NCBI RefSeq assembly: GCF_900166585.1
Contig: NZ_FVZC01000008.1
Location: 806,001 to 870,000 of the forward strand
Length of the DNA: 64,000 nt
From: Mesobacillus jeotgali
GTDB taxonomy: Bacteria > Bacillota > Bacilli > Bacillales > Cytobacillaceae
Reading direction: 5' to 3'
The translations under genes were made by a program, and so were the position numbers. The notes beneath the pieces are model-generated. The model was given only the letters and a program-made list of their open reading frames with translations, did not search any database and was not told the DNA's origin. Positions 3,031-55,538 of the stretch are shown here, one piece after another; the stretch's first letter is position 1, and every line of letters starts with the position of its first letter.

Positions 3031-3219
3031 AGTTATGTCTAAGCAGCAAAGGCAGTTGTAATTACTCTACAGAAAATTGGTTTATTATGGCAGTATAATG
3101 AAATTAAGTCTTTTGATTCACCTATAAAACTAGCAAATAAGTAATTCTCCCTATTTAGAATATACTGAATATTTTATATTATTTAGGAAATAGAAATATT
3201 CCAATAGGGAGTGAATGAA

Positions 3220-5046
3220 TTGTTAAAAGTCCTTTCCACTTCGGCGTTATCCCTTGCTTTAGCGGGCAGCGCAGTATTTGCGGGAGTCCATGCTAATGAT
3301 TCCGCAGTCAAACCACAAAGTAAATATGAACTAAGCCTTGCTCACCATGTAGGTGCTGCGCCAGAGCTTGTTGATAGAGCCAAGGAATTAGGAATCGATA
3401 TTTCCAAGGTCGATCCTGCAGAGAAAATTGCCCAGACTGGAGCGAAATTCCAGGAGCCTGGTGATAAGCATGTAGCTTACAAGGAAGCAACTGGTGATAT
3501 CCCGGTACTGGTTATTTTGGCTAAGTACAAGGATGGAGATGAGCCGGTTGGCGACATGAAGGGTCAAGTCCCAGCTCATTATTATGAAGATTTAATTTTT
3601 GGAAGCGAATATAATCCTTACGAGCTGCCACAATTCCAAAAGTATGATGGCCCAGATGTTCCAAAAGATCGTACGATGCAAAATGCTTATAAGGAATCAA
3701 GTTACGGAAAAACAAACCTTATCCGCAAAGAAAACACTGAATTTGTTTGGGTTGAGCTGCCAAAGGGTGCCTCTTACTATCTTGACCAGGAAGGAACATA
3801 CGCTGAAGGCGGAGTGTACAAGCTTGGTAACGTAAATGGAGACGCACATACTGGCGAATTCATCCGTGACCTGTTAAAAGCAGCGGATGGTCAAGTGGAT
3901 TTCTCTAAGTATGCAGATGAGAATGGAGAGGTTCCAAACGTATTCGTCGTCCACGAAGGAACTGGAGCGGAATACAGCCGTGACCCGGCACAATTCTGGT
4001 CTCATAAATGGAGCCTGTTAAGTGCACTTTACTATGGAAAATACTATGAAACTGGCAAGACTGCACCTCAGTATGAAGGAATCAGCCAGGGCGCATGGAT
4101 TGACAGGACAGTCAAAGAAGACATGACATACGATGGAGTAGTCGTTAACAACTACAATATCCAGCCAGGTATCGGCGGTAACGTAGCTGGTTTCGACGCA
4201 GCGACAAACACTTATAAAGAAGAAGCGAAGACAGGTCCATTCCCAGTACAGACTGGCGTTTATGCACACGAATTTGGACATGCACTAGGATTGCCTGATT
4301 TCTATGACACTCTTTACTCATCAGAGGGAGTAGGAAACTATTCCATGATGGCAGGCGGATCATGGATGCGCTATCCGAATAAGGCGGAGTACGGCGGAAA
4401 CTCACCGACACACTTCGATCCATTCTCAAAGGTTTTCCTTGGATGGGCTAATCCAATCGAAGTCAAGCCAGGTGAAGTTAAGCAAATCACCTTGCCTGCT
4501 GCAAACAAAGCAACAGCAGATAACGGTATCGTGAAAATGGAAGTGCCGGGTTCTAATGGCACTGAATACTTCTTGTTCGAAAATATGCAGCAGGATGGCT
4601 TCAACAAAGGTATGGTCCGTCAGGGTGAAAACGCTCATGGTTTAGTGGCATGGCATGTTGACGAAAATGTCATCAACCTGTACCAGACAGCTGGCTTCCG
4701 TCCGAACAATGTTGAAAACTGGATGAACAAGCGCTTCCAGTACAATCAGTCACAGACTGCGAGCAATGGGGATGTGGTAACTCACTACGGATTGTCAGTC
4801 CTTCAGGCAGATGGCTTGTATGACCTTGAGAAGAACCTAAACCGCGGTGATGCTGGTGACTTCTTCAAGACTGGCAGCAAGATCACTCCTGTTTCAGGAA
4901 ATGTACACACTGGTTCTTACTACTTCTGGAAAGGCTTAAGTGATACACCTGCTGATTCCGGAATCCATGTGACTGATATCAAGGAAAACAAAGATGGTTC
5001 CATCTCAGCCAAATTCTTCTATAACTTTAATTCAAGTGTAAAATAA
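3220..5046 (+). CDS. Secreted M6-family metalloprotease (immune inhibitor A-like)
   Basis: 608 residues from TTG at 3220, preferred because AGGGAGTGA (3205-3213) lies 6-7 bp upstream; the in-frame GTG at 3211 would overlap that site. The N-terminus is a signal peptide (LKVLSTSALSLALAGSAVFAGVHA). The zinc motif HEFGHALGLPDF starts at His350, with Glu351 and His354, and is followed by a SMMAGGSW Met-turn-like segment. Immune inhibitor A proteases degrade host antibacterial proteins; family members in B. cereus/thuringiensis are near 795 residues, so this one is shorter and appears to lack much of the C-terminal beta domains. Stand-alone gene with its own terminator. Confidence 0.88.
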   Translation: MLKVLSTSALSLALAGSAVFAGVHANDSAVKPQSKYELSLAHHVGAAPELVDRAKELGIDISKVDPAEKIAQTGAKFQEPGDKHVAYKEATGDIPVLVILAKYKDGDEPVGDMKGQVPAHYYEDLIFGSEYNPYELPQFQKYDGPDVPKDRTMQNAYKESSYGKTNLIRKENTEFVWVELPKGASYYLDQEGTYAEGGVYKLGNVNGDAHTGEFIRDLLKAADGQVDFSKYADENGEVPNVFVVHEGTGAEYSRDPAQFWSHKWSLLSALYYGKYYETGKTAPQYEGISQGAWIDRTVKEDMTYDGVVVNNYNIQPGIGGNVAGFDAATNTYKEEAKTGPFPVQTGVYAHEFGHALGLPDFYDTLYSSEGVGNYSMMAGGSWMRYPNKAEYGGNSPTHFDPFSKVFLGWANPIEVKPGEVKQITLPAANKATADNGIVKMEVPGSNGTEYFLFENMQQDGFNKGMVRQGENAHGLVAWHVDENVINLYQTAGFRPNNVENWMNKRFQYNQSQTASNGDVVTHYGLSVLQADGLYDLEKNLNRGDAGDFFKTGSKITPVSGNVHTGSYYFWKGLSDTPADSGIHVTDIKENKDGSISAKFFYNFNSSVK

Positions 5047-5976: not shown

Positions 5977-6020
5977 GTTCTTACCTCCGTTGCTGGCTTC
6001 CGCGTTACTGAGGCCAAAAT

Positions 6021-6590
6021 TCATTTAGCCTTGCTGAAGCTTTTCTTCCTCAGCTGCAATACGTCATCAGCAGGCTGAGGATTCTTGCCATATAACTTTT
6101 TCGAGTTAAAAGCATGGATTTCCTGGTAAACGTATTTCATCCGTTCGAATACCCATTCGTCGGTTCTTGGCGATGGAGCCCAGCTATAAATATCCATTTT
6201 ATTCAGTTCCCCAGTGACAGCATGGATTCTTTCATACTGAATAGAACCCATTTCCTTGAATCCATTTCGCTGGTAAAAATCGATCCGCTTTAAAGAATCG
6301 GGATCGCTGGCATTTTCCGGCTCGACTTCGAGAATGATGGCTTTATTCTTTTGTTTAAGTCTGTCCAAAAGCCTGGAACCTGTACCCCTGCTTCTTCTGC
6401 TGCCGCTTACCAAAATATAATCAATAAAAATAAAATCCTGCTGTTCAAGGTAAACAAGGACATATTCCGGTCCTTCTTCTTTTTTATATACTTTTTCCTT
6501 TTCGGTAAAAAGGGATTCAAAATGTTTTTTTGATTTCATTTCACGGGCCGGGAAGTATTCCAACAGCTTTTCATGCCAGTCTTTAATCAC
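6021..6590 (-). CDS. GNAT-family N-acetyltransferase
   Basis: 189 residues from GTG at 6590, chosen because AAAGGAG lies 8 bp upstream; the upstream ATG frame to 6662 lacks a ribosome site. The middle part carries a GNAT acetyl-CoA loop (SRRSRGTGSRLLDRL), a beta strand AIILEVEPEN, and FYQRNGFKEMG, which is the typical end of the fold. Substrate unknown. It is divergent from the ATP-grasp gene at 6766, the two sharing a 175-bp promoter region with a large palindrome. Confidence 0.82.
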   Translation of the reverse strand: MIKDWHEKLLEYFPAREMKSKKHFESLFTEKEKVYKKEEGPEYVLVYLEQQDFIFIDYILVSGSRRSRGTGSRLLDRLKQKNKAIILEVEPENASDPDSLKRIDFYQRNGFKEMGSIQYERIHAVTGELNKMDIYSWAPSPRTDEWVFERMKYVYQEIHAFNSKKLYGKNPQPADDVLQLRKKSFSKAK

Positions 6591-6683
6591 GTTTGGTGCT
6601 CCTTTATAGTAATTTGGATTTACCATCTTGATGGAAACTATAATTACATACCTGAAAAACAAGAATATTAAACCATTTTTTTG

Positions 6684-6712
6684 AAAATAGTAGTTTGAAA
6701 AATTACTATTTT
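6684..6712. promoter_or_regulatory. Perfect 9-bp inverted repeat, probable operator
   Basis: AAAATAGTA and TACTATTTT, separated by 11 bp (6693-6703). It overlaps the candidate -35 box of the ATP-grasp gene and lies 94 bp upstream of the divergent GNAT start. Size and spacing fit a dimeric repressor; no regulator gene is adjacent. Confidence 0.65.
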
Positions 6713-6765: not shown

Positions 6766-7995
6766 ATGGAGAATACAGAAAATAAAAAAGAACAGCTAAC
6801 AGCCATATTGGGATGGAGTCTTCCTGCGATCGAAGCTATGGATAAGCTTGGCCGTCCATTCGTCGTAGTAGGTCCGCCTGATTTCCAGGAGTTTGCGGAT
6901 AAGCATGAAATTCAATTTATTGGCTGGGAATTCGACCGTTTAAATGAAAAATCGACCGAGCTTTATGAAAAGCTCAGGATGCTCAACACTAGGCTCGCTG
7001 TCCCGATTTATGAAGAAACGGTCGAATGGGCCGGGGCGCTAAATGCAAGATTTACAGGAGACCCTAGAATCTTTAATCGTTCACTTCTGCTTCGGGACAA
7101 AGGGCTGATGAAACGTAAAGCACAAATTGCAGGTATGAGAGTCGGAGTTTTTGAAGAGGCATATGACAAGCAGGATGTATACAGATTCCTGAAGCGGGTT
7201 AATGAGGCATTGATTAAGCTGGATGGCGATCCGAATGACCCTATTCATGTAAAGCCGCTTAATAAAGCGGGTACAGTCGGGCACAGGATGATCAGGGAAG
7301 CAAAAGAGATTGAGATGATGGATGACTCTGAGTTTCCATGTCTGATGGAAAGCCATCTTGATGGCCAGGAATTCTCTTGTGAAGTTTTTATCCATAATGG
7401 AAAAATTCGCTTTCTGAATATCACGGAATATGTACAGCTAGGCCATTCGAATTTTGTGCCAGCCTCTCCTTCTCTAGAGGAATGGAGACCGCAAATCAGG
7501 GCAGAGATTGAGAAACTGGTAGAGTCCTTCGAAATAAAATACGGCGTCATCCACCCGGAATTTTTCATTTCCCCGGACGGAAAAATCAATTTTGGCGAAG
7601 TGGCTGCCAGGGTTCCGGGAGGGCATATTTTCGAACTGATTGAAAGGGCTTATGGCTTCAGTGCTTTTCAGGCGCAAATTCTCTGCAGTGATCCACTGAC
7701 AACCGAAGAGGAGCTCGAAGCCTTTTTCCCTGAAGAAGTTGTATCTGCAAAAGGGTTTGCGGGAAGCCTCATGGTCTATCCCCGTGTACAGCTGATTGAA
7801 AAGCTGAATGTCCCAACTGAATTGAAGGAAAATCCATACTTCGAAAGACATGATATGTTCATCCCTGTTACTTCAAAGGTGGCTGAGCGGGTAGGGTTCG
7901 GAAACCATTACGGAACGATCTTTTTCTTTGGCGATGACAGCACAAAGATGAGAGAGCTTTTGAAAGAATACGAGAATTACGATTTTTATTTATAA
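6766..7995 (+). CDS. ATP-grasp ligase of unknown product
   Basis: 409 residues. The ATP-grasp fold is visible: lysine in HVKPLNKAGTVG (161-172), the glycine-rich PCLMESHLDGQEFSCEVFI (191-209), and the metal-binding end GVIHPEFFISPDGKINFGEVAARVPGGHI (260-288; Glu278, Arg282). ATP-grasp enzymes join a carboxylate to an amine or thiol through an acyl phosphate; carnosine synthase and the BacD-type dipeptide ligases belong to this superfamily. The substrate here is unknown. The next gene starts 15 bp downstream, so the two are co-transcribed up to the terminator at 9997. GCGGGGAGC serves as ribosome site. Inference: it makes an amide-bonded small molecule or modifies a peptide. Confidence 0.8.
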   Translation: MENTENKKEQLTAILGWSLPAIEAMDKLGRPFVVVGPPDFQEFADKHEIQFIGWEFDRLNEKSTELYEKLRMLNTRLAVPIYEETVEWAGALNARFTGDPRIFNRSLLLRDKGLMKRKAQIAGMRVGVFEEAYDKQDVYRFLKRVNEALIKLDGDPNDPIHVKPLNKAGTVGHRMIREAKEIEMMDDSEFPCLMESHLDGQEFSCEVFIHNGKIRFLNITEYVQLGHSNFVPASPSLEEWRPQIRAEIEKLVESFEIKYGVIHPEFFISPDGKINFGEVAARVPGGHIFELIERAYGFSAFQAQILCSDPLTTEEELEAFFPEEVVSAKGFAGSLMVYPRVQLIEKLNVPTELKENPYFERHDMFIPVTSKVAERVGFGNHYGTIFFFGDDSTKMRELLKEYENYDFYL

Positions 7996-8010
7996 GGGAG
8001 AAGAGCAGCG

Positions 8011-9975
8011 ATGAGCAATGATATGACTATTATAAAAGACAGATTCAACCAGGCGCTCGACACTCTTGACCAGGCAAGACCCTTCGCCAAAAGCATGTAC
8101 CAGACAAATGTATTCCAGCTTGCAATAGAACTGGCCTCAACGGACGAAGGACTGTCTCATCTCTATGACAAGGCCTCTTTATTTGATCAGGCTGGTGTTT
8201 TTAACAGCGGTCCCTGGGAAAATCCTGAAAAATTGCAGCCTCCCTTTGTTGGTGGTTCCCTGAAGGTTAAGGGAGTAAACTCCATTGTGGAACTTCTTAG
8301 CGAAATGAGGATGCTCTCGATTGCGAAAGGTGACTATCAGCATGAGCTGGTTTCAGCGGAGGAAGCGAGGGAATTTTTGAATGAGGTACTGGCGCTGAAC
8401 CTGGACCTTCTTTTTCCTCCTGAAACCGAGGAGGCGAGGATTGAACATGGTGAACATATTGAAAGGGCACAGCGGTTATTCCGTTTTCTTGGCGAAGAAT
8501 TAAGCTTTAAGGCGATTGCCAATAATCTTGTGGAAGAGATTGAGCGGCTGGCCGTCCAAAGACCGATCATGGTCAACAGGATCATTAAGATGATTGAGTC
8601 GGCTGAACAGTTAATGGAAACCGGAATTGAGGGCCAGGAACAAGAAACAATCAGAAAATACCATAATGCTTTTCAGGCTCCAAGCCCTTTGAGCCGGGAA
8701 AATCAAAGCCAGAGAGATTACCGGGTCAGACTGAAGGATGCCTATCAGGAAGAGCTGGAAACTGAAGCAAAGGCTTTTGCGGCTTCAATGAAGGATACTG
8801 GTCTTGTTTCCCCATATCATGCCGTTTACATTCGGTTTATAAACCGGGCGCATCCAGAACTGGTGCCGCTTGCGCTTGATTTGTCTGAGACTGGCGTTGC
8901 CAGCTACAATGCCAACCAGCAGTTGGTTCATGACTTGATTCAGCTGTCGATTTTTCCGGAAACAAGGCAATCAATTTATGGCCTTGCCAAAATGCTGGAC
9001 AGGGGCGTCCTGACACAGGAGCCCATTCTGCCGGGAATTCGCCGGCTATTCGAGCTTCCAATCCATCATGAGGTCAAGAGGGCCCTGATGAAGAAAGAAT
9101 TTGAGCAAGGAGGCATTTCTCCGAACGGAGTTCTTGTGGCCGGAACAGTCAGCGTGCTTGGCCAGCCACTTGGAATCGGACAGGGCCTGAATCCTACATG
9201 CCAGTCTGCAAGGGCGATCAGCCTTTGGGCGCAGCATGGAATCGGCCAGCTGTTAGAGTATATTGCCAGAGCTGCAAGGGATAATGATATTGATATGACC
9301 TTCGAGGGAGAGACAATCCATTCGAGCCAGATTGAAGGCGGTGTAGCGGACAAGATTGACATGGAGCTGGATCCCGTTTCCGTCGTACTCGTTCCGCATC
9401 TTGATAAAATCTATAACGAAATGATGAAAAGAACACTTCTCAGGGGAGAAGATGGGCATAAATGGGTGAACCCTGAATTTTATGGAGAATGGATCCCAAG
9501 GGGGTTCATCAATGTAGTCGATCCCATAACAGGAGCAGTTTCCAATTATCAGGCATTTGTGAAGCTCTTTTATGCCACCCACCATCCAGACTACAATGAG
9601 GGATATGAAATGATCTATCCTAATCCAGTGGGGATTTTCATTACAAGTGTAAATGCGGAACTAATGGGGCTGCATGCAGTTTCCATTCAGCGAATCACCA
9701 GGGATGAGCAAGGGGAGTACCGGGTTTATTTCTATAACCCTAATAATGACAGCGGCCAAAATTGGGGGCAGGGCATTTCGCCTGCGGTCCAGGGAAATGG
9801 AGAATTAGAAGGGGAATCCTCTCTTCCATTCCATGAGTTCCTGGCACGTATGTATGCATTCCATTATAATCCTTATGAACAAGGAGAGACCTATATGGTA
9901 GAGGACTCGCTTGTAAGTGAAGTTGAAGCGCTGGCAAAGGAAAGCTGGGGCAAGTCCTACCCAGCCTGGATATAA
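8011..9975 (+). CDS. Large conserved protein of unknown family, possible Cys-His hydrolase
   Basis: 654 residues, ATG with AGGGAGAAG; no family recognised. No signal peptide or membrane segment, so cytosolic. The first ~370 residues are mostly helical. The last third holds the segments shared with the paralogue at 10166: GLNPTCQSARA (Cys397), VPHLDKIYNEMMKR (461-474), HKWVN (483-487), and LHAVSIQRI with His555 followed by RVYFYNPNNDSG (Asn576). A Cys at the start of a helix, then a His before a beta strand and an Asn/Asp at its end, is the order of papain-like and transglutaminase-like active sites. That reading is inference. Co-transcription with the ATP-grasp enzyme suggests that the two act on the same compound. 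Confidence 0.75.
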   Translation: MSNDMTIIKDRFNQALDTLDQARPFAKSMYQTNVFQLAIELASTDEGLSHLYDKASLFDQAGVFNSGPWENPEKLQPPFVGGSLKVKGVNSIVELLSEMRMLSIAKGDYQHELVSAEEAREFLNEVLALNLDLLFPPETEEARIEHGEHIERAQRLFRFLGEELSFKAIANNLVEEIERLAVQRPIMVNRIIKMIESAEQLMETGIEGQEQETIRKYHNAFQAPSPLSRENQSQRDYRVRLKDAYQEELETEAKAFAASMKDTGLVSPYHAVYIRFINRAHPELVPLALDLSETGVASYNANQQLVHDLIQLSIFPETRQSIYGLAKMLDRGVLTQEPILPGIRRLFELPIHHEVKRALMKKEFEQGGISPNGVLVAGTVSVLGQPLGIGQGLNPTCQSARAISLWAQHGIGQLLEYIARAARDNDIDMTFEGETIHSSQIEGGVADKIDMELDPVSVVLVPHLDKIYNEMMKRTLLRGEDGHKWVNPEFYGEWIPRGFINVVDPITGAVSNYQAFVKLFYATHHPDYNEGYEMIYPNPVGIFITSVNAELMGLHAVSIQRITRDEQGEYRVYFYNPNNDSGQNWGQGISPAVQGNGELEGESSLPFHEFLARMYAFHYNPYEQGETYMVEDSLVSEVEALAKESWGKSYPAWI

Positions 9976-9996: not shown

Positions 9997-10033
9997 ACCT
10001 GTTATCGGCAGTATGCTGATAACAGGTTTTTTA
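9997..10033 (+). terminator. Intrinsic terminator between the two paralogues
   Basis: CCTGTTATC ... GATAACAGG followed by six T. It separates the ATP-grasp/654-residue operon from the second paralogue, which therefore needs its own promoter. Confidence 0.9.
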
Positions 10034-10165
10034 TTATGTCTTAAAGGGTTCATCTACTCGAAGCAGAATATAAAGTATACGTCTATTTTTCAACTTACCC
10101 AGTATTTCAGTCTTTTTTTGGCCATTATGATTAAGGGAAGGATTCGATCAGAAAGGGTAGGAGAT

Positions 10166-11995
10166 ATGGGATATATATTGAAAACTGCAGATTCCTCGTT
10201 CCGCAGAGCTTTATACCAGCTATGGGGCTGTGCTGAAGAGCAAAAAATACATTTTCGGGAGACGGTGCTGGAAGAGGCGGCAATGCTGCTGGGTGAAAAA
10301 AAAGGGTTGGAATTTCTGTATAGCTACGCAGCTGTCTTTGAACCCGCAGGAGTTTTTACTGGTACCGTCTGGGAGGATTTAAAGGGATTGAATCCCAGTC
10401 TTACAAGGGGAACACTGCTGGCAGGAGGGACCATGGCTGCAGCTGAAGCGCTGAGCAATTTGAGGATCCTGGCATTGGCAAGAGGGGTATATATTAATCC
10501 TGAGATGACTTCATCAGAGGCGACAGGATACCTTGAGAACCTGCTGGCCCTGAATATCGACATACTGGCATTGGGAGAGACGAAAAAGAGTCAAAAAAGG
10601 TGGAAAGATAAAGATGACTGCGCGGGTTCATTGATGAGATATCTGGCTTCATGCTGTTTTTCTCCGAAAATTTTCGATTTACTGGAACAGGATATAACCA
10701 ATCTTGTAGCTCAGAGGCCAATAATAGTCCGCGAAATAATCAGCATGGCCAATAGTGCGTGCAATCTGGCGCATGGGAATGTCAGCAGCCACCCAACCCT
10801 TCATGCATGTCAGCGCTCTCTCTTTTTCCCCTCTGAACTTGCCCGAAGGCAGGGGGACTATCTTAAGGAATTAAAAAATGCAGGTGATCTTGTTCTATTA
10901 ACAGAGGCTTCACAATTGAGGGATTCAATGCTGGAGTCAGGTCTGGTATCATCTTATCATGACACTTTCCTCCAGTTTATTTCTAAAGAAAAACCATATC
11001 TTCTTGAGGTCTTTTTCGGTAAAAGCTCCGCTGCTAGAGCGGCTCTTAAAAGAAATTTTCCATTAATCCGCAAGATTACAGAGGAAATCACCGGTAAAGA
11101 AGCAAGCCAGAGTATTTATGGTTTATATCATATGTTTGAGCGGCAGGTATTTAGTGCTGAAGTAGTCAGAGAGCTTGAAGCATTAGTCAGTGACCAATCA
11201 GCAATGGTTAATCTCTTTAATGAAAACAACAGCAATCGCCTGACGCTTAGAGACCAAATTTTAACAGGGCTGATCAGCATTTTGGGGCATCCGCTAGGAG
11301 CAGCACAAGGATTTAATCCGACATGCCAATCAACAAGGCTTCTGAGTTACCTGTCTCAGAAATATCCTTATAAATTGATCAGCATGGCCCGGAGATTATT
11401 GACTAGCGGAGAAATCGAAATTCAATTTGAGGGGAAAGCAATTTCTTCATCAGATCTCGTGCGTTGCGAGCTAAAAGATGTAGGTCATATTGACTCTCTG
11501 TCAGCAGTCATGCTTCCTCACCTTGATGCTATTTATGGCGAGATGCTTAAAAGAGCTGCCGGCAGGGATTCCGATCCCCACAAGTGGGTCAATGGCCAAT
11601 TCCATATGGCAGGTGTTTTACCAGGCTTTGCAGAACGGAATAAGTATAATGAACAGGAATTTGCAAATCTTTTCCAATATTTTTATGTTGCAGGGGCAGA
11701 AAGTATAAACAAATATTTGCCGCAGCCAGCAGGAATCCTGATGTACGACAGGAACGGCAACCTTCTTGGCCCGCATGCCATTCTTATACAAAGAATTGAA
11801 CCCACACAAGATGGGGATTTAAGGGTTTACTTTTTTAATCCTAATAATGACAGCCATCAGCACTGGTACAATGGCGTCATGACGAGTGTTAAGGATTACG
11901 GTGAACGACATGGCGAGGCATCACTTAGATTTGATGATTTTATAAAATGCTTGTATGCCTTTCATTTTCCTGAACAATCCTCTGCAGACCAATAA
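10166..11995 (+). CDS. Second paralogue of the unknown Cys-His protein
   Basis: 609 residues from ATG at 10166 (AAAGGG about 8 bp upstream); the open frame extends back to 9917 but that part overlaps the previous gene and its terminator. It aligns along its length with the 654-residue protein: PAGVFTGTVWEDL vs QAGVFNSGPWENP, VAQRPIIV vs AVQRPIMV, QSIYGL, ILGHPLGAAQGFNPTCQSTR (Cys387), PHLDAIYGEMLKR, HKWVN, and GPHAILIQRI (His537) with RVYFFNPNNDS (Asn558). All candidate catalytic positions are kept although the rest has diverged strongly, which argues against decay. Separately transcribed. Function unknown. Confidence 0.72.
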   Translation: MGYILKTADSSFRRALYQLWGCAEEQKIHFRETVLEEAAMLLGEKKGLEFLYSYAAVFEPAGVFTGTVWEDLKGLNPSLTRGTLLAGGTMAAAEALSNLRILALARGVYINPEMTSSEATGYLENLLALNIDILALGETKKSQKRWKDKDDCAGSLMRYLASCCFSPKIFDLLEQDITNLVAQRPIIVREIISMANSACNLAHGNVSSHPTLHACQRSLFFPSELARRQGDYLKELKNAGDLVLLTEASQLRDSMLESGLVSSYHDTFLQFISKEKPYLLEVFFGKSSAARAALKRNFPLIRKITEEITGKEASQSIYGLYHMFERQVFSAEVVRELEALVSDQSAMVNLFNENNSNRLTLRDQILTGLISILGHPLGAAQGFNPTCQSTRLLSYLSQKYPYKLISMARRLLTSGEIEIQFEGKAISSSDLVRCELKDVGHIDSLSAVMLPHLDAIYGEMLKRAAGRDSDPHKWVNGQFHMAGVLPGFAERNKYNEQEFANLFQYFYVAGAESINKYLPQPAGILMYDRNGNLLGPHAILIQRIEPTQDGDLRVYFFNPNNDSHQHWYNGVMTSVKDYGERHGEASLRFDDFIKCLYAFHFPEQSSADQ

Positions 11996-12028: not shown

Positions 12029-12283
12029 CATTTGGTTTGGTTTCTAAAGGTAGTTGCCATGATCTTTTAAAAAAACGAAGAAATACTGTGCTTCAGTGAG
12101 CTAGACAGTGATTTTCCTGCAGTATCCATTTAAATTGGGTTAAAAGGGCTGTTTTGCTGTTCTTTTCCTGCTTTACAACTCGAAAGGCAGAGGAGTATGA
12201 TTACTACAGTTTTAAAAAATATACTCTCTTTTTTGGCTAAGGTTTTACGAAAAAGAGTCTGATTCAATGAGTTTCATATTTCT

Positions 12284-12440
12284 AAATCGCTGAATCCAAA
12301 AAGGAGCGGGGGAACCAACTGCGTGGATTTAATCCACTTGGGGTGAAGTCTTGAAAAAGGCGGGGCTATTCTGAGCCCTAATCCGACAGCTAACTCCGCA
12401 AGCGTTGCAGAAGAGGAAGATGAAGCTTGTGTGACGATTA
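12284..12440 (+). ncRNA. c-di-AMP riboswitch (ydaO-yuaA class)
   Basis: The core is recognisable: AATCGCTGAATCC, then AGGAGCGGGGGAACCA, GGGGTGAA near 12340, GCCCTAATCCGACAGCTAA near 12376, and CCGCAAGCG. These are the conserved blocks of the ydaO element, an OFF switch that binds c-di-AMP. A terminator hairpin follows at once and a potassium transporter gene lies 112 bp beyond, the classic target. Confidence 0.92.
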
Positions 12441-12599: not shown

Positions 12600-13940
12600 A
12601 TGCGCAGGAAATTGTTTATTATGCTTGACCCTCCAAAGATACTTGTCTTGGGTTTCGGAGCGATTATCCTGATTGGGGCATTGTTGCTGTCACTGCCATC
12701 TGCAACAACTGATGGCAAGGGACTTTCGCTGCTTGATGCATTATTCACAGCAACATCCGCCACCTGTGTGACAGGACTTGTAGTTGTTGATACCGGCGAC
12801 ACGTTCACCACCTTTGGAGAAGTGGTCATCCTGTCGATGATTCAGGTCGGCGGATTGGGATTCATGAGCTTCGCTACATTGCTCGCATTCATTCTAGGAA
12901 AAAGAATTTCATTAAAAGAAAGATTGGTCATCCAGGAAGCGTTCAACAACGCAACGGTTGAAGGAGTCGTAAGGCTTGTAAAAAGAATCCTGATTTTTAC
13001 AGCCGTCGCCGAAATTGGCGGGGGAATCCTTCTGTCATTGAGATTTTCACAGGACATGGCTGCTGGAAAAGCTATTTATTTCGGTTTCTTCCACGCAATT
13101 TCAAACTTTAATAATGCCGGGTTTGACTTGATGGGAGATTTCAGGAGCCTTACCGCCTATGCTGAAGATCCCATCGTAAATATTACGGTGATTTCACTGA
13201 TCAGCCTGGGAGGCATAGGCTTCATCGTAATGAATGAATTGTTTGAATACCGAAGCACCCGTCGGTTGTCCCTCCACTCAAAAATGGCACTGGCTGTTTC
13301 GGGTTTTCTGGTAGCTGGCGGTACCATCCTGGTTTTTATTCTGGAGTATAATAACCCAGCTACCCTGAAGCCGTTATCAGCGGCTGGCAAAATATTCGGG
13401 GCTTTTTACCAGGCTGTCACACCAAGGACCGCCGGATCTAATACCTTAAGCATTCCGGATTTACAGCAGTCAACCTTGTTTTTGATCATCTTCTTGATGT
13501 TCATCGGCGCTTCACCGGGATCAACTGGCGGAGGAATCAAGACAACCACGCTTGCCGTCTTGATCGGTGCCGTCAAATCGCAAATTCGCGGCAGGGAAGA
13601 TGTAACTTTCTTTGGAAGAAGGATGGATTACAGTATTGTTTCGAAATCTTTGACTGTTACTCTCATAGCTATTTTCTTGGTAATATCCATGACAATGGTG
13701 TTGACCATCACAGAGCAGGGAAAAGACTTTCTGATGATTTTTTTTGAAGTGGTGTCAGCCTTTTCAACGGTTGGGCTTTCAATGGGCTTGACGCCGGATT
13801 TGTCACCATACGGAAAGATATTCATTTTAATTACAATGTTTGCAGGCCGGGTTGGTCCATTGACACTCGCGTATGCAGTGGCAAGAAAAAGAAAAGAGGA
13901 TCATTATCGTTATCCAGCTGGAAAAGTGATGATTGGGTAG
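12600..13940 (+). CDS. ktrB: Ktr potassium uptake system, membrane subunit
   Basis: 446 residues, the KtrB length. Four pore repeats of the TrkH/KtrB type are visible, each with the selectivity Gly region: TATSATCVTGLVVVDTGD, AISNFNNAGFDL, AVTPRTAGSNT and VVSAFSTVGLSMG. The protein is a K+ channel-like transporter that works with the RCK ring of KtrA, encoded next (stop codon TAG lies within the next gene's TAGGAGGA site). Na+-coupled K+ import is the family role. Transcription runs through the c-di-AMP riboswitch at 12284, so high c-di-AMP should shut the operon down. Gene order ktrB-ktrA differs from the B. subtilis ktrA-ktrB order. Confidence 0.93.
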   Translation: MRRKLFIMLDPPKILVLGFGAIILIGALLLSLPSATTDGKGLSLLDALFTATSATCVTGLVVVDTGDTFTTFGEVVILSMIQVGGLGFMSFATLLAFILGKRISLKERLVIQEAFNNATVEGVVRLVKRILIFTAVAEIGGGILLSLRFSQDMAAGKAIYFGFFHAISNFNNAGFDLMGDFRSLTAYAEDPIVNITVISLISLGGIGFIVMNELFEYRSTRRLSLHSKMALAVSGFLVAGGTILVFILEYNNPATLKPLSAAGKIFGAFYQAVTPRTAGSNTLSIPDLQQSTLFLIIFLMFIGASPGSTGGGIKTTTLAVLIGAVKSQIRGREDVTFFGRRMDYSIVSKSLTVTLIAIFLVISMTMVLTITEQGKDFLMIFFEVVSAFSTVGLSMGLTPDLSPYGKIFILITMFAGRVGPLTLAYAVARKRKEDHYRYPAGKVMIG

Positions 13941-13952
13941 GAGGATTATATT

Positions 13953-14609
13953 ATGGCAAGGCAATTCGCAGTAATCGGGATGGGCCGTTTCGGGTCCAGT
14001 GTAGCAATCACCCTGTATCATGAAGGACATGAAGTACTGGCTATTGATAAGAGTGAACAGCATATCGAGGAATATAAAGAGTTTGTCACGCATGCAGTAA
14101 TCGGGGATTCGACCGACGAGCAAACATTGAGGGCAGTCGGGATCCGTAACTTTGATACCGTCATTGTGGCAATCGGTGATGACATTCAGGCTAGTATCCT
14201 AACGGTTCTTATTTTAAAAGAAATGGGTGTATCCAATGTCGTAGCAAAGGCCCTCAACAAGCACCATGCACAGGTGTTGTTCAAGGTTGGCGCGGACAAA
14301 GTCATCTTCCCGGAACGGGATATGGGGGAGAGGGTTGCCCACCAGCTGATGGCTTCACCGAATGTATTGAATTTCATTGAGCTTTCCGATGACTACAGCA
14401 TCGAAGAAATCAAGCTGCCAATGAGCATGGCCGGCAAAAATCTGATTGAAATCAATCTTCGTGCTAAATACAATATCACGGTAATTGGCGTTAAAACTGG
14501 GAACAAGGTTGATATTTCGCCAGATCCGGAGAAGACGCTGAGAGCAGAGGATATCCTGATTGTCCTTGGGGAAAATGGCGATTTGAACAGGTTTACAAAA
14601 ATTAAATAA
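13953..14609 (+). CDS. ktrA: Ktr potassium uptake system, regulatory RCK subunit
   Basis: 218 residues. N-terminal Rossmann/RCK_N domain begins FAVIGMGRFGSSVAITLYHEGHEVLAID, with the GxGxxG ATP/ADP/NAD-binding loop and the acidic residue ending strand 2; RCK_C follows from about 135 (SDDYSIEEIKLP...). KtrA octamers gate KtrB, with ATP opening and c-di-AMP binding to RCK_C closing. Because the same nucleotide also controls transcription through the upstream riboswitch, potassium uptake is under dual c-di-AMP control. Ribosome site TAGGAGGA; terminator 9 bp after the stop. Confidence 0.93.
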   Translation: MARQFAVIGMGRFGSSVAITLYHEGHEVLAIDKSEQHIEEYKEFVTHAVIGDSTDEQTLRAVGIRNFDTVIVAIGDDIQASILTVLILKEMGVSNVVAKALNKHHAQVLFKVGADKVIFPERDMGERVAHQLMASPNVLNFIELSDDYSIEEIKLPMSMAGKNLIEINLRAKYNITVIGVKTGNKVDISPDPEKTLRAEDILIVLGENGDLNRFTKIK

Positions 14610-19115: not shown

Positions 19116-19144
19116 TTCAATTATTGAAATGAATTTAATAAGTT

Positions 19145-19247
19145 ACTTATCAAGAGAGACTGAGGGATTAGGCCCAATGACGTCCGGCAACCTCCTTTAT
19201 GGAAAGGTGCCACTTCCTGCAGAATGTGTTCATTCTGAAAGATAAGT
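19145..19247 (+). ncRNA. SAM-I (S-box) riboswitch
   Basis: P1 arms ACTTATC (19145) and GATAAGT (19241); core AAGAGAGACTGAGGGA, GGCCCAATGACGTCCGGCAACC, AAGGTGCCACTTCCTGCAG. This is a textbook S-box. It binds S-adenosylmethionine and stabilises the terminator at 19264, turning the methionine importer off. Confidence 0.96.
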
Positions 19248-19263
19248 CGTATAGTTGTTTACG

Positions 19264-35966: not shown

Positions 35967-35982
35967 TGAATTAGAACTGAAA

Positions 35983-36057
35983 AAGGCAAACTTATCGAAA
36001 GGTGAGGACGCAAAACTACGAGTCTAAGGCCAACGGGCTATGATCGTCGGGTTGCCA
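35983..36057 (+). ncRNA. c-di-GMP-I (GEMM) riboswitch
   Basis: GGCAAAC at 35985, TCGAAAGGTGAGGACGCAAA, CTAAGGCCAACGGGCTATGAT and the closing GTCGGGTTGCC match the GEMM-I blocks: the GNRA-type CGAAA loop, the GGACGCAAA turn, and the tetraloop-receptor CTAAGG...ATG. It binds cyclic di-GMP. The transcript reads to the right, towards the small gene at 36332. Confidence 0.9.
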
Positions 36058-36121
36058 TAAAAAGATCGGATGAGAAATAAAGTATAGGTGAATAGTTATG
36101 TGTTAACTGTTTTGCCAAATG

Positions 36122-55268: not shown

Positions 55269-55330
55269 TCGAACAATTTGTTTTTATTTTAAGATAATGT
55301 TAGGTATAATTACTTTAACATAATATAATT

Positions 55331-55470
55331 CCTTCGGGGTCGGGTGAAATTCCCAACCGGCGGTGATGAAGCAAGAGCTTCTAAGTCCGTGACCCGCTTA
55401 ACATTTGTTAAACGGTGGATCTGGTGAAACTCCAGGGCCGACAGTTAAAGTCTGGATGGGAGAAGGAAAA
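55331..55470 (+). ncRNA. FMN riboswitch (RFN element)
   Basis: CTTCGGGGTCGGGTGAAATTCCCAACCGGCGGTGATGAAG, then GTCCGTGACCCG, GGTGGATCTGGTGAAACTCCAGGGCCGACAGTTAAAGTCTGGATGGGAGAAGG, given here only as the order of its blocks, match the RFN consensus throughout. FMN binding favours the terminator at 55539 and shuts riboflavin synthesis. A TATAAT at 55305-55310 is the likely -10 box. Confidence 0.97.
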
Positions 55471-55538
55471 AACGAGGATTAAAAAAACGGGATTAGTATA
55501 CCCTTTTTTAACCCTCTGGTTTGACATTGCCTTTTTTA

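Follow-up and report, generated by a model that had tools for sequence, protein, structure and literature searches.

The question raised by this locus is what two adjacent genes, one resembling a ligase gene and the other encoding a large protein of no recognised family, do together in Mesobacillus jeotgali. The genes lie in a stretch of 64,000 nucleotides (contig NZ_FVZC01000008.1, positions 806,001 to 870,000), referred to here as the window, whose own numbering is used for the coordinates below. Gene A (6766-7995, + strand) encodes a predicted ATP-grasp ligase of 409 amino acids (aa) whose closest solved relative is the L-amino acid ligase RizA, and gene B (8011-9975, + strand) encodes a 654-aa protein of a new family, probably a papain-like thiol enzyme with the residue set Q391, C397, H555 and N576. 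A preliminary description of the window had placed the two genes 15 bp apart under one promoter and one terminator, and had interpreted them as a ligase and a thiol enzyme acting on one small peptide-like compound. The co-directional arrangement and the 15-bp spacing, with A ending at 7995 and B starting at 8011, are as described. The A-B pair is a real, conserved system, undescribed as far as could be seen: no title or abstract opening describing it was found in the literature, full texts having been consulted in passages, so that this negative is weak.

Comparison with the databases bears out the earlier statement that B stands outside the known families, and we regard it on these grounds as a new protein family. 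The best Pfam match was bZIP at a non-significant E value of 0.73, NCBIfam gave no match at E<=1, the best PDB sequence had an E value of 1.3 (0.64 when the family profile of B was used), and no match to PADLOC or PHROGs was obtained at E<=0.01. Single scans of 72 B members against Pfam gave weak and scattered matches, the commonest of which occurred in 7 members with a best E value of 0.0037, the lowest E value of any match being 0.0012. Of 8000 candidates scored for B, at least 2347 are relatives at E<=0.001; as many candidates were scored for a B protein from Halomonas, 120 being listed for each query, and among the 240 matches listed the relatives are named "hypothetical" or "uncharacterized" protein in their sources.

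What recommends B as an enzyme is a small set of invariant residues. The alignment was built from 72 diverse members and then extended to 363 rows, including 120 Halomonas-type sequences, with near-copies kept. Gln391, Gly392 and Cys397 are present in 363/363 rows, and His555 and Asn576 in 362/363; the Cys (in NPTCQSARA), His (in LHAVSIQRI) and Asn (in YFYNPNND) occupy the positions reported for them previously. The active-site pattern of papain is Q-x5-C ... HA ... N, and in B Gln391 likewise sits six residues ahead of Cys397, so that the order Cys, His, Asn with a preceding Gln agrees with the clan CA signature. Cys397 is the sole cysteine of B, and its column is the only mostly-Cys column in the alignment. 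The single row without His555 and Asn576 (L097) is a copy that has no A beside it, from genome G054, where A is missing and the homologous stretch crosses an in-frame stop. By hydrophobic moment, a crude test, residues 569-577 of B are strand-like (95th percentile), and about 370 residues precede the thiol part. Taken together, the residue pattern makes it likely that B has papain-like chemistry.

Gene A is more readily classified. It matches PF13535 at an E value of 2.4e-9 (37.5 bits against a cut-off of 27), and a profile of 40 A relatives finds in the PDB RizA (4wd3, E value 1.9e-12) and then BL00235 (E value 2.4e-6), matches that place A in the ATP-grasp superfamily. Glu265, Glu278 and Arg282 are invariant in the 40 sequences, and A has the ATP-grasp domain with conserved acidic residues that ATP-grasp L-amino acid ligases require. 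Ligases of this kind join free amino acids into dipeptides via an acyl phosphate, according to passages of PMC9321006. The likeness to RizA and BL00235 (ATP-grasp_4) covers positions 65-314 of the A profile, which align to RizA, and includes a common E-x-A-x-R motif; the match stops short of the C-terminal quarter of A, however, and A differs from these ligases in having B as its partner at each of the 105 loci examined.

The pairing itself is conserved. A scan of named genomes confirmed 577 loci, of which the best 80 were kept, and in 80/80 of these A lies directly 5' of B on the same strand, with a gap of -26 to 129 bp (median 18 bp with the starts of the longest open reading frames, ORFs); because the best 80 of 577 were kept, this order speaks for near kin. 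A also precedes B in 25/25 further loci of the order, which are the new best-scoring places of an order-wide search and may include species already counted, and in a Halomonas record; lower-ranked places, including ten A-less second B copies of one genus, stand outside the 25-locus count. Of 101 genomes, 11 carry full-length A and full-length B, always together, and B is carried by 47/299 genomes of the order. The distances of A and B correlate with r 0.83 over the 80 loci, as they would through common descent alone, and locus and genome counts were taken without correction for shared descent; L006 with G031, and L005 with G013, probably each represent a single organism. Carriers include halophiles by name (Halobacillus, Gracilibacillus, Salipaludibacillus, Pontibacillus, Halomonas) as well as genera that are not so named (Neobacillus, Peribacillus, Lysinibacillus).

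Outside Bacillota the pair occurs in the Halomonas record, which is labelled as a plasmid (1.8 Mb) and whose A is 55% identical; among the matches listed, the named relatives of the Halomonas-type B are from Halomonas, Vreelandella or Halomonadaceae. The reading frame of this B (L108, 9941-12025) diverges near its end, where its relatives cover about 89%, possibly through a frameshift in the record. Locus L005, titled Chryseobacterium sp. ISL-80, has a 96%-identical B and the same layout of acetyltransferase gene, A, B and C as the window, and its label is probably wrong. Apart from A, B and acetyltransferases of the GNAT superfamily, no neighbour family is found in more than 23/80 loci (ORFs of at least 70 aa); absences of neighbours are upper bounds because locus ends cut some neighbours off. 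A phage or defence system was considered and rejected, given the lack of a PADLOC or PHROGs match at the threshold above and of any match in phage records, and viral contigs contained no confirmed relative of B or of A. A system for ribosomally synthesised and post-translationally modified peptides or graspetides was likewise rejected, there being no widely conserved short ORF near A-B: 1051 short ORFs lie within 1.5 kb across the 80 loci, no group of them spans more than 13 loci, and the members shown for the top ten groups are near kin.

Two features of the locus were absent from the preliminary description, a divergent GNAT gene upstream of A (6021-6662, - strand; PF13508, 29.4 bits against a cut-off of 27; the start codon at 6626 was used for later searches) and a paralogue of B, gene C. 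Profile matches place the locus acetyltransferases in the GNAT superfamily, and two types of them go with two subtypes of A. In the 80 kept loci, a relative of the window GNAT adjoins A in 35 (35/69 subtype-1 loci), while an AblB-type GNAT accompanies 10/11 subtype-2 loci (11/12 when G069 is added), with no crossing between the two. Most relatives carry a core GNAT elsewhere (a match in 86/101 genomes), from which the window type is distinct: 19/20 core rows fall in one clade with support 100/100. One locus row (L034) is uncertain in the tree, and the sole GNAT of G058 groups with the locus copies. A second GNAT, of window type or a core relative, was found in 7/11 A-B genomes, beside A in six of them.

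The window-locus GNAT has a weak RimI match only, and the AblB result applies to the subtype-2 loci, whose GNAT exceeds the cut-off for AblB (beta-lysine N-acetyltransferase) with 235.9 and 242.4 bits against 205.1. Depending on the lineage, these copies sit either upstream or, in convergent orientation, downstream, and the 12 locus copies split from 3 canonical AblB at 84/96, on long branches. Among the 12 genomes with AblB beside A-B (10 of them without stated completeness), AblA was not found in 7, scored below the cut-off in 1 and was present in 4; of these four, 2 have no other AblB above the cut-off and 2 have a second AblB. Where no AblA was found (7/12) the GNAT may therefore have another substrate, and where AblA is present and the locus AblB is the sole copy above the cut-off (2/12) it may simply make N-acetyl-beta-lysine. 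The GNAT is thus tied to A-B in many loci, and in 2/12 it could be an ordinary beta-lysine acetyltransferase.

Gene C (10166-11995, + strand, 609 aa) keeps the Q/C/H/N set and shares 34% identity with B across 611 columns; it is an old paralogue of B. In 20/80 loci a second B-type gene is found downstream of A-B, and in an unrooted tree a branch with a Shimodaira-Hasegawa-like likelihood ratio (SH-aLRT) support of 98 separates the 20 copies of downstream type examined from the others. Its start was set at 10148 in the Pfam and NCBIfam searches and at 10166 afterwards, the ATG, which is preceded by AGGGTAGGAG, having been picked by eye. Three more of the 101 genomes have a C-type copy only (G009, G034 and G054; partial in G034). 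In G009, a genome of the same genus, the alignment with the window breaks at 5990 and resumes at 10142, so that the GNAT-A-B stretch is absent there and C is retained. A polar amino-acid ATP-binding cassette (ABC) transporter adjoins C-type copies in three lineages: in L006/G031 it follows C, and in G034 and G054 it is found with C without A-B. In G058 the same kind of transporter adjoins the locus-type GNAT; its NCBIfam names are of cystine/glutamine type, under the equivalog cut-offs. In one genus, ten genomes carry a further B that lacks an A (A was sought in 5 of them), and an M20 dipeptidase gene, assigned to its family by a scan of one locus, is near that B in 5/5 loci examined, adjacent in 3 and within four genes in 2. 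In two of these five loci an HMG-CoA (3-hydroxy-3-methylglutaryl coenzyme A)-synthase-like gene lies downstream (L134, 7220-8770; L140, 11488-12903), the call for L134 being a scan below model cut-offs; thiolase-, acyl-CoA dehydrogenase-, short-chain dehydrogenase/reductase- and CoA-transferase-like genes are also seen there by eye.

The signals around the window pair agree in part with what had been described. The intrinsic terminator 3' of B (9997-10033, + strand) is borne out by a 14-bp stem (9997-10027) followed by a T run, the segment 9985-10040 folding at -20.9 kcal/mol with a z score of -4.8 and 0/200 shuffles being equally good; C is placed beyond it. A shared promoter is made plausible by a candidate TTGAAA-17-TACTAT 5' of A (6681-6709, + strand, from a consensus scan), but promoter-like sites in the region number 12 against 13.1 expected by chance and are thus not in excess. 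Further along the window a cyclic di-AMP (ydaO) riboswitch (12278-12420, + strand, 94.2 bits) precedes genes for KtrB/KtrA-like potassium uptake (12600-14609, named by eye). Control of A-B by cyclic di-AMP was considered and rejected, as this element belongs in front of the K+ transporter genes and a scan of 16 other loci detected no riboswitch upstream of A. Other riboswitches above Rfam gathering scores, all on the + strand, are those for S-adenosylmethionine (SAM, 19144-19248), cyclic di-GMP (c-di-GMP-I, 35975-36059) and flavin mononucleotide (FMN, 55326-55471), and a metalloprotease of the M6 family (immune inhibitor A type) is encoded at 3211-5046 (+ strand; TIGR03296, 136.6 bits against 110.8).

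The reading that we favour, and hold with even confidence, is that A and B stand at the centre of an undescribed pathway that makes or modifies a small amino-acid compound, an amide or a dipeptide. A small molecule is preferred to a protein target because the neighbours are a dipeptidase, an amino-acid transporter and two amino-acid-type GNATs. In such a pathway A would use ATP to convert a carboxylate into an acyl phosphate and join it to an amine in the manner of RizA, giving a dipeptide or an amino-acid amide, and the dedicated GNAT present in many lineages would acetylate the amine of the substrate or the product. Cys397 of B would then attack an acyl group to form a thioester, assisted by His555 and Asn576 with Gln391 in the oxyanion hole, and this thioester might be resolved either by hydrolysis, as turnover or trimming, or by transfer of the acyl group to a second amine. 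The pairing of A with B, the conservation of the residues and the superfamilies of A and of the GNATs are direct observations; how B folds, that it forms a thioester, what the substrates are and in which order the steps run are inferred. The earlier interpretation is partly supported, in that the pair is conserved and the invariant Cys, His and Asn stand in papain order, and no significant match of B to a known family, which would have spoken against it, was obtained; the system is, however, larger than was described. A more specific version, which we put forward tentatively, is that B founds a new papain-like family which, in Bacillales and Halomonadaceae, has as partners a RizA-like ligase and either of two GNATs recruited separately, in an undescribed pathway for an N-acetylated dipeptide or diamino-acid amide that may represent a new class of compatible solute. 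If the reading of A-B is right, common soil and saline bacteria would have a cysteine-enzyme family and a pathway for a peptide-like metabolite that are both new, and there would be candidate genes for the N-acetylated solutes of some halophiles.

Several observations weigh against the favoured pathway. With hhalign the C-terminal profile of B had a match probability of 0.3% with Peptidase_C39_2 and 0.4% with Transglut_core, next to 0.1% for an ATP-grasp control, the test being confined to these two papain-like Pfam families, both narrow target sets. Hydrophobic moments are mixed, the helix after Cys397 being unremarkable (72nd percentile) and the strand from His555 poor (33rd). B-type proteins occur without A as well, 34/69 subtype-1 loci have no window-type GNAT, the Halomonas locus has none either and its record has no AblB, and in G093 a further core-type GNAT, a near twin of the core copy, is located some 30 kb away from A. 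The G009 genome is only 66% complete, in 560 contigs. Part of this also bears on the view, which we consider unlikely, that B is not papain-like and that its invariant Cys, His and Asn are structural or bind a metal or cofactor: neither the PDB profile search, the Pfam scans of 72 members nor hhalign gave a profile match, and the three residues are not unique, because B has 32 polar or aromatic positions that do not vary among 72 sequences. The single Cys, the Gln at -6, the HA at the His and the C-H-N order nevertheless fit papain closely, and the one row that has lost His555 and Asn576 is the A-less copy from G054.

The remaining alternatives differ in what A and B would act upon. The osmolyte proposal, in which GNAT, A and B make and break an N-acetylated dipeptide or diamino acid as a compatible solute, corresponding in function to the N-acetylglutaminylglutamine amide (NAGGN) system, is the boldest version of the favoured reading and an attractive if rather doubtful one. 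AblB makes a known osmolyte, the subtype-2 GNAT exceeds its cut-off, AblA was not found in 7/12 of the genomes concerned and some carriers are halophiles by name; many carriers, however, are not, ectoine synthase, the one proxy used, shows no significant association (17/47 B-positive against 70/252 genomes, p 0.29), none of the 13 NCBIfam families matched by A at E<=1 is NAGGN synthetase, the locus AblB may simply make N-acetyl-beta-lysine in 2/12 genomes, and the riboswitch scan of 16 loci was negative. Ligase plus protease is a common pairing for modification and its reversal, and A could accordingly add an amino acid to a protein in the manner of RimK while B removes it as a deconjugating protease. 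The roughly 370 residues ahead of the thiol part could bind such a protein, but the nearest solved relatives of A form dipeptides, the genes nearby include those for a GNAT, an M20 dipeptidase and an amino-acid transporter, and no widely conserved short ORF was seen (no search was aimed at a tag protein as such), which leaves this proposal quite improbable. We give an equally low probability to the tailoring of a specialised metabolite, in which A would supply an acyl unit for transfer by B, much as BtrJ and BtrH act in succession in butirosin biosynthesis; the combination of ATP-grasp protein and papain-like acyltransferase follows that logic, but no larger cluster is conserved, as other neighbour families reach at most 23/80 loci.

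The favoured pathway can finally be set beside systems with related parts. The NAGGN cassette consists of Ngg (GNAT plus ATP-grasp), AsnO and an M42 peptidase. NAGGN is treated in passages of PMC1224877. The likeness lies in a GNAT, an ATP-grasp enzyme and a third protein resembling a hydrolase, all serving an N-acetylated dipeptide, whereas here the GNAT is separate and of two types, A is RizA-like and B of papain type. Membership in the NAGGN system was rejected on the NCBIfam result for A, and the single M42 neighbour scanned (L142) scored 55.7 against the TIGR03106 cut-off of 397.75. In butirosin biosynthesis the ATP-grasp partner is BtrJ, and activation by an ATP-grasp enzyme followed by papain-like acyl transfer is what the two systems would have in common. 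The acyl transfer by the papain-like BtrH is described in passages of PMC10318531. B differs in having no BtrH_N match, and A-B in having no larger conserved cluster around it. Proteins of the GNAT-DUF3335 type have a RimK partner, and share with A-B the coupling of a papain-like domain to a GNAT. This coupling (DUF3335 being PF11814) is covered in part of PMC10318531. The GNAT is unfused here, and DUF3335 is neither a match for B nor among the 25 families shown for the 72 members. With AblA/AblB, which make N-epsilon-acetyl-beta-lysine, the subtype-2 GNAT shares a score above the AblB cut-off, but the locus copies are separate from canonical AblB, and AblA was not found in 7/12 genomes. B matched none of the Pfam families of these comparison systems. 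The logic of A-B, that of an ATP-grasp enzyme with a GNAT and a papain-type or other hydrolase, nonetheless resembles that of the known systems, on which further comparison passages are found in PMC2922099 and PMC4431377.

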